This document shows, piece by piece, positions 9,968-64,000 of a stretch of DNA of 64,000 nt. Under the pieces are notes generated by a model, which worked only from the letters and a program-made list of their open reading frames with translations, searched no databases and had not been told where the DNA came from. The position numbers and the translations under genes were made by a program. How positions within the stretch are numbered: the stretch's first letter is position 1; the number at the start of each line of letters is the position of its first letter. Source of the DNA: Aquabacterium sp. (lineage in GTDB: Bacteria; Pseudomonadota; Gammaproteobacteria; Burkholderiales; Burkholderiaceae_C); contig NZ_JAUSAR010000073.1 in assembly GCF_030652515.1 (NCBI RefSeq), positions 1 to 64,000 of the forward strand. The letters are read 5' to 3'.

Positions 9968-10052
9968 TGGTGCCGACGGCGAGACTCGAACTCGCACAGC
10001 TTTCGCCACTACCCCCTCAAGATAGCGTGTCTACCAATTTCACCACGTCGGC
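9968..10052 (-). tRNA. tRNA-Leu (anticodon GAG)
   Basis: An 85-base class II tRNA with a complete cloverleaf: acceptor stem GCCGACG paired with CGTCGGC, a D arm with GGTAGACACG, an anticodon loop TTGAGGG with stem CTATC/GGTAG, a variable arm, and a T loop GTTCGAGTC. The CCA end is encoded. The anticodon GAG decodes CUC and CUU. It lies immediately upstream of nuoA on the same strand, so tRNA maturation may create the 5' end of the nuo message. Confidence 0.95.
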
Positions 10053-61612: not shown

Positions 61613-61987
61613 ATGAAACTCCAAGCCGACCGTCCTGAAGGCGTCAATGTCATCAATGCTTACACCCGCCAGTCGGTGTCGATCAATGGCCAGGAACACC
61701 TGGGCAGCGTGCTCGTGCCCCCCAGCGGTGAGCCTGTGCCGTGGCCCGTGACCAGCATCGCCGACCTGACCGAGGCCCATTTCGAGCAAATCCTGCAGAT
61801 GGACCCGGAATTGGTGGTGCTGGGCAGCGGCCCGACCCTGAAATTCACCTCGCCCGCCTTGATGAAGGCGTTGATGCAAAAGCGCATTGGCGTGGAGACC
61901 ATGGACACCCCGGCGGCGTGCCGCACATACAACATCCTGGTCGGTGAGGGGCGTCGCGTGGTCGCCGCCCTGCTGGTTCACCCCTGA
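61613..61987 (+). CDS. Mth938-domain protein (DUF498)
   Basis: A 124-residue soluble protein of the DUF498/Mth938 family, with LVPPSGEPVPWPV, VVLGSGPTLKF and GVETMDTPAACRTYNIL. The mitochondrial relative NDUFAF3 helps assemble complex I; a similar role in bacteria is unproven, though a full nuo operon lies at the other end of the window. It is divergent from the aminotransferase gene. Confidence 0.85.
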   Translation: MKLQADRPEGVNVINAYTRQSVSINGQEHLGSVLVPPSGEPVPWPVTSIADLTEAHFEQILQMDPELVVLGSGPTLKFTSPALMKALMQKRIGVETMDTPAACRTYNILVGEGRRVVAALLVHP

Positions 61988-62043
61988 AAACGCCCTTGAA
62001 AAGCGCATTTGGGACCCCAATTTGGGGGAGATCCCCCCACGCC

Positions 62044-62073
62044 TTGGGGGTAGACCCATAAGCACTTTATAAT
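62044..62073 (+). promoter_or_regulatory. sigma-70 promoter of bcp
   Basis: A perfect TATAAT at 62068-62073 follows TTGGGG by 18 bases. The predicted start is about 30 bases before the bcp ATG. Confidence 0.65.
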
Positions 62074-62109
62074 CTCGGGTTATTCACGCAGGCTGATCAA
62101 TAGTAGAAC

Positions 62110-62589
62110 ATGACACCCGCCCTCAACAAACCTTTGCCAGAATTCGAAGCTGTCGCCACGGGTGGAGTCAAATTCACTCCCCAGGCCTTCGTCGGCCAAA
62201 CCGTGGTGCTGTACTTCTACCCCAAGGATCACACCCCCGGTTGCACCACCGAAGCCATGCAATTCCGCGACAAGCACAAGGAATTCATCAAGGCTGGCGC
62301 CATCGTGTTCGGTGTCTCCCGGGATAACCTCGTTTCGCACGACAAGTTCAAGGAAAACCTTGAATTGCCCTACGAACTCATTGCCGACACTGAAGAAAAG
62401 CTTTGCCACATGTTCGGTGTGGTCAAGAACAAGATCATGTACGGCAAGAAGGTCAAGGGCATCGAGCGCAGCACCTTCCTGATCGATGCCAGCGGCATCC
62501 TCCGCGAAGAATGGCGCGGCATCAAGGTCGCTGACCACGTCGAAGCCGTGCTCAAGGCCGTCAAAGACCTGAACAAAGAAGCGGCCTGA
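62110..62589 (+). CDS. bcp: peroxiredoxin, Bcp/PrxQ type
   Basis: A 159-residue thiol peroxidase. The peroxidatic cysteine is C45 in HTPGCTTEAMQFRD. The resolving cysteine found five residues later in E. coli Bcp is Met here; C99 in EEKLCHMFG is the likely partner, as in PrxQ proteins with the resolving Cys in a later helix. It has its own TATAAT promoter. Confidence 0.92.
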   Translation: MTPALNKPLPEFEAVATGGVKFTPQAFVGQTVVLYFYPKDHTPGCTTEAMQFRDKHKEFIKAGAIVFGVSRDNLVSHDKFKENLELPYELIADTEEKLCHMFGVVKNKIMYGKKVKGIERSTFLIDASGILREEWRGIKVADHVEAVLKAVKDLNKEAA

Positions 62590-62669
62590 TTCACAAAGCG
62601 TGACAAAGGGGCGTGTTGCACGCCTCCGACACGGTCACGCGTTGGGCATGGAGTGTGCATAATCAAGCC

Positions 62670-62762
62670 ATGCTTCTGAGCTTGTACCGACTCAGCCCCC
62701 TTTGTGAACCCCGAATGGCAAGCCATGCTTGCCTGCAAGATCAGCGTGAGGCCGCACATTAA
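62670..62762 (+). ncRNA. short structured transcript or 30-codon leader ORF before phoH
   Basis: A CATAAT box at 62658-62663 places a transcript start at or next to the ATG at 62670. The ORF MLLSLYRLSPLCEPRM... (30 codons) ends inside the loop of a strong terminator. A second hairpin, GGCAAG/CTTGCC, lies at 62717-62733. It could be a small RNA of about 110 bases or a leaderless leader peptide attenuating phoH. Both readings are inference. Confidence 0.4.
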
Positions 62763-62778
62763 CCTGTGCGGCCTTTTT
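62749..62778 (+). terminator. terminator upstream of phoH
   Basis: AGGCCGCACA pairs perfectly with TGTGCGGCCT around a 6-base loop, followed by TTTTG. It lies 31 bases before the phoH ATG. Confidence 0.8.
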
Positions 62779-62808
62779 GTTTGTGCCCACCCGAGGAACG
62801 GAAACACC

Positions 62809-64000
62809 ATGCCCCTGCCCAAGCCGCCTGCCAAACGTGCTGACATGCTGAATGCTGACGACTACTCGTCGCAGCCCAAACCTGCCAAAACCAGTGCCCG
62901 CAGCAGCACACGCGCCACCCCCGCCAAACCAGCCCGCGCGCCGGTGCTGGAACTGGTGGGCAAAGAGCCTTTGAACACGCCGGCTTTCCAGCAAACGGTC
63001 AATGACCTGAACCCGCCTGCCCGCACCGCACCAGCCGCGCCCAAACGCGCCGCCCCCGCGCCTGTCGTGGCTGAGAAGATCAGCGATGGCAGCCCATCCT
63101 TCCCGATGCGCAGCACCCCCGCATCCGCGTCCAACCCTTCGCTGAGCGGCACACGCCGCCGCAAAGGCGCCGCAGGCCCCGCCAAGCTGTTCGTGCTGGA
63201 CACCAACGTGCTGCTGCACGATCCGATGTCGCTGTTCCGCTTTGACGAGCACGATGTCTACCTGCCGATGATCACGCTCGAAGAGCTGGACGGGCACAAG
63301 AAGGGCATGACCGAAGTGGCGCGCAACGCCCGCCAAGTCAGCCGCGACCTGGACGCTCTGGCCGCCGACATGGGCCGGGCCCAGTCCGACCCATCCGCCG
63401 GCATCGAGCTGTCCAAGACCGGCCACAAGGATGCGCGCGGCAAGCTGTACTTCCAGACCATGAACCTGGACGCGCAACTGCCCATCGGCCTGCCGCAGGG
63501 CAAGGCCGACAACCAGATCCTGGGCGTGGTGCAGGCCTTGCGCACGCAGCAGCCTGATCGCGATGTGGCGCTGGTGTCCAAGGACATCAACATGCGCATC
63601 AAGGCGCGCGCCCTGGGCCTGCCTGCTGAAGATTACTTCAACGACAAGACGCTGGAAGACGGCGACCTGCTGTACACCGGCGTGCTGCCCCTCCCCACCG
63701 ATTTCTGGGAGCGCCACGCCAAGGGCATGGAAAGCTGGCAGCAAGGCGGCATCACCTTCTACCGCATCAGCGGACCCATGGTGCCGGTGCTGCTGATCAA
63801 CCAGTTTGTGTACCTTGAAACCCCCGGCGCCACCCCCTGGTACGGCAAGGTCACCGAGATCACGGGCAAGTCGGCCGTGCTCAAAACGGTCAAGGACTTC
63901 AGCCACCAGAAGCACTCGATCTGGGGCGTGGCCGCGCGCAACCGCGAGCAAAACTTCGCCCTGAACCTGCTGATGGACCCCGAATGCGACTTCGTGACGC
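62809..64000 (+). CDS. PhoH-family ATPase with N-terminal PIN domain (partial)
   Basis: The first 397 codons are in the window; the gene runs off the right edge. After a low-complexity Ala/Pro N terminus of about 120 residues, a PIN-like nuclease domain begins (KLFVLDTNVLLHDP, LEELDGHKKG, VALVSKDINMRIKA) with conserved acidic residues. The PhoH2/YlaK architecture puts an RNA helicase-like PhoH ATPase after this; the region from about residue 320 leads into it. A GAGGAA ribosome-binding site precedes the ATG. A terminator 31 bases upstream suggests attenuation or an independent upstream transcript. Confidence 0.88.
   Translation, partial: MPLPKPPAKRADMLNADDYSSQPKPAKTSARSSTRATPAKPARAPVLELVGKEPLNTPAFQQTVNDLNPPARTAPAAPKRAAPAPVVAEKISDGSPSFPMRSTPASASNPSLSGTRRRKGAAGPAKLFVLDTNVLLHDPMSLFRFDEHDVYLPMITLEELDGHKKGMTEVARNARQVSRDLDALAADMGRAQSDPSAGIELSKTGHKDARGKLYFQTMNLDAQLPIGLPQGKADNQILGVVQALRTQQPDRDVALVSKDINMRIKARALGLPAEDYFNDKTLEDGDLLYTGVLPLPTDFWERHAKGMESWQQGGITFYRISGPMVPVLLINQFVYLETPGATPWYGKVTEITGKSAVLKTVKDFSHQKHSIWGVAARNREQNFALNLLMDPECDFVT

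Follow-up and report, generated by a model that had tools for sequence, protein, structure and literature searches.

In the window, the 64,000-nucleotide stretch of Aquabacterium sp. DNA analysed here, phoH is preceded by a leader that is most likely a translation-coupled attenuator, formed by a widely conserved leaderless open reading frame (ORF) laid over a terminator and representing a variant of pyrBI-kind control. The argument is built from sequence comparison and predicted folds. The preliminary description of this site had offered two readings, a small RNA or a leader peptide controlling phoH, and had pointed to ribosome-coupled attenuation; a leader ORF tied to phoH, with such attenuation as its likely use, is supported by the conserved unit and its open frame. 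A literature search on phoH and PhoH2 leaders, attenuation and leaderless starts returned no title or abstract start describing the element, subscription journals being mostly outside that search. The locus is composed of the following features, given in window coordinates.

62110..62589, plus strand: bcp-like peroxiredoxin gene, the upstream neighbour, with a Pfam AhpC-TSA match above cut-off
62654..62663, plus strand: promoter element TGTGCATAAT, whose -10 hexamer CATAAT lies at 62658-62663
62670..62762, plus strand: leader ORF of 30 codons plus TAA, leaderless by its spacing
62676..62695, plus strand: 5' inverted repeat CTGAG...CTCAG, weakly kept
62717..62733, plus strand: second hairpin, in the predicted fold of the window
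62748..62782, plus strand: intrinsic terminator with a T-rich tail, its stem spanning 62748-62775 with 11 pairs
62809..64000, plus strand: phoH of PhoH2 type, with PIN_4 and PhoH domains, running beyond the window to 64569

As read from the sequence, CATAAT (62658-62663) is followed by the six bases CAAGCC and an ATG at 62670-62672, and the stop codon TAA of the leader ORF (62760-62762) is located inside the terminator loop. The hairpin has 11 pairs, 7 of which are G-C, and a loop of 6, followed by TTTGTTTG; 33 nt separate its stem from the phoH start at 62809. The hexamer, the ATG, the 30-codon ORF and the terminator with the stop codon in its loop are thus all at the positions first assigned to them. 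The range proposed for the feature begins at 62642, slightly upstream of the motif, whereas the start and stop of the ORF and the terminator were placed correctly. No recognisable -35 accompanies the TGTGCATAAT promoter element in the window. NCBIfam peroxiredoxin models match the bcp-like gene, but under their cut-offs. By its domain content phoH is of the PhoH2 kind, because both PIN_4 and PhoH domains are present, and its score against the NCBIfam PhoH2 model (229.6 of 680 bits) is under the cut-off. A link to ybeY was ruled out, since this phoH belongs to the PIN-PhoH2 type and is followed by a glutathione transferase gene.

The folding energy of 62620-62800 is lower than that of all 200 dinucleotide shuffles (z -2.76). 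A simple scan of 61800-64000 finds no two-hexamer sigma-70 promoter, where 0.4 are expected, and two terminator-like sites against 3.1 expected. Taken alone, the promoter and terminator pieces of the window are within chance, and such a scan would not single the site out. The feature is real, as its conservation in relatives indicates. Conservation of the ORF or the stems in close relatives had been set in advance as a test that could refute the original claim, and the comparison left the claim standing.

Within the genus, 42 genomes were considered and phoH DNA was matched in 41, the match in G061 being too weak to be phoH; 40 leaders were compared, including that of the window. In all 40, TGCATAAT is followed by ATG 6-8 bases later. 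The leader frame crosses the terminator in 39/40 loci, with its stop codon at -24 to +35 relative to the phoH ATG, and the sole exception is the window copy, which stops in the terminator loop. The overlap of stop codon and terminator had been taken as part of the design, a view that fails because 39 of the 40 frames run through the terminator and the window is the exception. The leader was also considered as an N-terminal extension of phoH and rejected, since in the genus the leader frame either terminates ahead of phoH or is read in a different phase from it. Between the ATG and the terminator, which lie 38-118 nt apart in the genus, the leader frame of 38 loci contains 0 stops in 1060 codons, as against 48 in 1055 and 52 in 1048 codons in the other two frames. 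L016 and L034 were left unscored in this count by the terminator pattern, and their leader frames also stay open.

Over 44 pairs of similar, equal-length genus leaders, changes at the three codon positions number 121:97:104; the positions change about equally, and therefore there is no sign of amino-acid constraint in the leader peptide as judged from these alignments. Six length differences between similar leaders were chosen by eye, and five of them are multiples of three, the exception being L025 versus L035. Chance would put 2.8 stops among the 96 changes counted within six clades, and there are none, a result that is weak by itself.

The terminator core stem is kept in 40/40 genus leaders and is the sole helix in their consensus fold, with a double change in 2 of its 11 pairs. 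This stem is nearly invariant in sequence across the genus, although paired changes could vary it (L002-L056). No conservation of sequence or structure was seen in the middle of the 40 leaders. The 5' inverted repeat (62676..62695) is absent both from the predicted fold of the window and from the consensus fold of the 40 leaders. The second hairpin noted at the outset does appear in the window's predicted fold, but by eye it is confined to the window's own leader and its nearest relatives, five leaders in all (L002-L005 and L053). The suggestion of an independent small gene or small RNA with conserved stems is thus not borne out, the terminator being alone in the consensus fold.

The same unit is found across the family, where phoH is present in 198 of 200 sampled genomes. 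Outside the genus, 108 upstream regions were taken with at most two species per genus; three end at a contig edge, leaving 105 usable loci, 94 of which carry the complete leader unit upstream of phoH. The 11 loci that fail the rule comprise six without a -10, three without a terminator, one without a start codon, and one in which bcp and phoH are just 12 nt apart. Visual inspection shows that at least L112 and L186 carry the unit and were missed by the rule. An earlier locus rule, which gave 72 complete loci and 64 crossing frames, was superseded since it often picked bcp's own terminator. CATAAT is present in 84 of the 94 complete loci. Where a terminator and a -10 are both found, a start codon follows 4-10 nt downstream in 94/95, and it is ATG in 90 of the 94 and GTG in four (L101, L133, L135 and L162). 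The gap between the -10 and the start codon is six bases in 69/94 and seven in 17/94, counts made with a rule that prefers ATG over GTG and the codon nearest six bases after the -10 and so leans towards that spacing.

The family frames also reach the terminator more often than shuffled leaders do. The stop codon starts at most 8 nt upstream of the terminator, or further on, in 94/94 loci versus 80.2 (sd 3.3) in shuffles, and the frame crosses the terminator in 85/94 versus 73.6 (sd 3.4). For genus and family together, the frame reaches the terminator, by the same 8-nt limit, in 134/134 loci and crosses it in 124/134; the ten that do not cross, the window among them, have their stop inside the terminator or start the stop codon within 8 nt before it. 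The joint log10 P is -6.7 for the 94 family loci and -5.0 for 18 genus representatives, values that assume independence and, as the loci are related, are overstated and serve as a guide only. Frame +2 reaches the terminator in 77/94 family loci and frame +1 in 44/94, the latter being a poor control because the NTGA of bases 7-10 gives it an early stop. The motif (C/G/T)TGA(G) at leader bases 7-11 (62676-62680 in the window) recurs across the family, with T at base 8 in 59/94 and G at base 9 in 78/94 loci. It often forms a stop in frame +1, and none arises in frame 0 before the terminator region.

The terminator itself moves relative to the start codon. It begins 27-72 nt from the ATG in the family and occupies all three phases (37, 27 and 30 of 94 loci). 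Its sequence differs among clades, and other clades use a different stem than the genus. Leader ORFs in 72 family loci range from 7 to 94 codons, and their C-termini differ. By these comparisons, the shared features are the start codon, the open frame and the terminator, and the peptide is not the selected product, because the terminator is found in all three phases and the codon positions change equally. The sequence marks of translation in the leader ORF are supported, as is its leaderless character, judged by its spacing.

A leader-motif scan of named genomes gave 21 records, of which 11 are from Aquabacterium and 17 have the motif upstream of a recognised phoH start. Aquabacterium commune strain DSM 11901 is among the carriers of the unit. 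The TGCATAAT-ATG motif was found in none of the 14 loci searched in other families of the order. In five loci of those families (L041, L044, L047, L049 and L050), bcp adjoins phoH with gaps of 3-27 nt and without the leader unit. Since bcp and phoH are adjacent there without it, the unit may be an innovation of, or an insertion inside, a single family.

In part of the genomes at least, transcription of phoH seems to pass through this leader. A terminator-like hairpin separates bcp from the leader promoter in 45 of 119 loci, versus 5.2 in shuffles; the other 15 of the 134 loci fall outside this count, eight with an unknown bcp stop and seven with less than 30 nt. The interval from the terminator to phoH has a median length of 36 nt in the 134 loci, and a -10-like site (at least 5/6) occurs there in 0/134, a count that is weak because just 0.5 are expected and a few interval lengths are misread near 0. 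With bcp set apart by a hairpin and no -10-like site after the leader terminator, expression of phoH in at least those 45 genomes seems to rely on initiation at the leader promoter and on polymerase reading through the terminator downstream of it. A missing Shine-Dalgarno was considered as a sign of coupling between the leader and phoH and was set aside: 98 of 134 phoH starts are without a motif (GGAG/GAGG/AGGA/AAGG/GGAA), but so are 114 of 118 bcp starts.

The reading favoured here, and held to be probable, is a translation-coupled, pyrBI-type transcription attenuator before phoH2, based on a leaderless ORF in which the peptide sequence would be irrelevant. From the spacing, transcription would start at the leader ATG or no more than two bases from it, and a ribosome would bind the nascent 5' AUG without a Shine-Dalgarno. 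A ribosome close behind RNA polymerase would pass over the 5' arm of the terminator, or stop at its foot, and would thereby prevent the hairpin, so that phoH is transcribed. With no ribosome close by, the strong terminator would release a short leader RNA. What is selected would be an open frame up to the hairpin rather than a peptide, and a competing antiterminator would be unneeded. In the accessible text of one study, termination fell from ~90% to <10% when a stop codon was relocated to 5 bp ahead of a terminator, and the ribosome must be near for termination to be suppressed (PMC4824070). According to the same text, a ribosome will probably fail to catch up with RNA polymerase in the first 100 bp unless the polymerase pauses (PMC4824070); the terminator here begins 27-72 nt (family) or 38-118 nt (genus) from the ATG, a point against the coupling model. 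For that reason, the default state may be termination, with some pause or slow-down as the switch. The inducing signal can be guessed at as nucleotide shortage, phosphate starvation or oxidative stress.

The closest known likeness is the pyrBI attenuator of E. coli. Its leader ORF, pyrL, extends across the terminator to a stop shortly ahead of pyrB, and the control responds to UTP. As is proposed for the phoH2 leader, translation is tightly coupled across the leader ORF. Two features of this type are found here: an intrinsic terminator lies between the promoter and the structural gene, by sequence and predicted fold, and the leader ORF runs into or through it (crossing in 39/40 genus and 85/94 family loci). 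In pyrBI, according to the accessible parts of two sources, a coupled ribosome translating the leader peptide keeps the intrinsic terminator from forming (PMC5021804, PMC4824070). The phoH2 leader differs in its downstream gene, in an ORF that by spacing is leaderless, and in the 27-118 nt from the start of that ORF to the terminator. It most likely works like the pyrBI attenuator, which is not to say that it is one. The leaderless polycysteine short ORFs of mycobacteria reportedly attenuate operons and respond to cysteine. They are likewise leaderless and attenuating, but the sequence of the phoH2 leader peptide appears free.

A free-standing small RNA that ends at the terminator, with phoH expressed by leakage and the ORF perhaps translated as a side effect, would be a dual-function RNA comparable to rnTrpL; it is unlikely, though it is the alternative that survives best. 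Promoter and terminator are conserved, the core stem of the terminator varies very little within the genus, and several of the first eleven leader bases are fairly conserved in the family. Moreover, the attenuator RNA rnTrpL of S. meliloti is described, in the part of the source available, as acting in trans (PMC7298713). These points are offset by a leader middle that is unconserved in sequence and structure within the genus, by the 38 to 118 nt variation of the ATG-terminator stretch there, by terminators that differ between clades, and by the lack of an Rfam match at gathering score. Rfam gives five matches at the leader at E up to 10, with 9-16 bits against thresholds of 50-111, and a trans-acting small RNA family was rejected because no hit to this stretch approaches a gathering threshold. 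In the whole window, Rfam reaches gathering score just once, for a tRNA (9971-10052, minus strand). A leader covariance model run against 399 genomes of the order matches 92 genomes at E up to 0.01, and it is insensitive, having missed family genomes that bear the unit (for example G090, G212, G335 and G364). Besides the window, two matches are strong and full-length (E below 1e-7), L058 and L059, both upstream of phoH in the same family; most of the others span the terminator part alone, and some weak ones are full-length.

It is improbable that CATAAT-ATG and the open frame are merely inherited or compositional, with no selection on translation and only a plain promoter and terminator at the locus. 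The loci are related, and shuffled leaders already reach the terminator in about 80 of 94, as this account would have it. The pattern GCATAAT-N(6,7)-ATG occurs four times in the genome of the window versus two for a reversed control pattern, a count that alone is not above chance. Besides the phoH leader, two of the four sites precede long ORFs, a helix-turn-helix regulator (read from its translation) and a 324-aa protein, and the -10/ATG spacing thus also occurs at ordinary genes that may be leaderless. The fourth site (L220, G000:C195) is on an AT-rich, foreign-looking contig and is a chance motif match. Contamination of the window's assembly is given as 8.99. What speaks against an absence of selection is that 94/94 frames reach the terminator, that GTG replaces ATG in 4/94, that stops by frame in the genus are 0 versus 48 and 52, and that five of the six length differences between similar leaders are multiples of three.

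A functional small partner of PhoH2 is a very improbable product of the ORF. Its position upstream of a PIN-PhoH gene resembles mycobacterial phoAT-phoH2, where, in the accessible part of the report, PhoAT is encoded by a short upstream gene co-transcribed with phoH2 and interacts with PhoH2 (PMC7390352). The PIN-PhoH fusion downstream is shared with that unit, but no conserved small protein partner is found here: codon positions show no sign of amino-acid conservation (121:97:104), lengths run from 7 to 94 codons in 72 loci, C-termini differ, and the window leader peptide has no Pfam match.

Classical amino-acid attenuation, in which a ribosome stalled on control codons favours an antiterminator, is the least probable reading of all, since, beyond a leader ORF and terminator preceding a structural gene, its competing antiterminator is missing from the predicted folds. 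The terminator stem is kept in the minimum-energy folds of 132/134 leaders (the terminator call at L141 and L168 is doubtful), and therefore there is no sign of a competing antiterminator. By eye, the leader peptides compared share no codon run for one amino acid. The attenuator RNA of S. meliloti trpL (rnTrpL/peTrpL) begins with the AUG of the leader ORF, as proposed here, but according to the available text it senses Trp through Trp codons and an antiterminator (PMC7298713). Both trp-type features, one-amino-acid control codons by eye and a mutually exclusive antiterminator in minimum-energy folds, are absent from the phoH2 leader.

The favoured attenuator can be extended, tentatively, to a family-wide gate in these betaproteobacteria. 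A leaderless start codon at +1 might recruit the ribosome, and phoH2, encoding an RNA helicase/RNase, might be turned on only if the ribosome keeps pace; the leader would then read leaderless-initiation capacity against polymerase speed, independent of any amino acid. Cues acting on speed could include a shortage of nucleotides during phosphate starvation, or oxidative stress, a peroxiredoxin gene adjoining the locus. Coupling of RNA polymerase at such a short distance is doubted without pausing in the accessible text of PMC4824070, and the leader, conserved in 134 genomes, lends itself as a natural test case of whether initiation on a leaderless start is quick enough for coupling within 30-120 nt. 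Among the matches listed, the PhoH2 literature is mostly mycobacterial. If the proposal is true, a promoter, a start codon, an open frame and a terminator would make up a minimal coupling sensor, and PhoH2 expression would be tied to the state of the ribosome.
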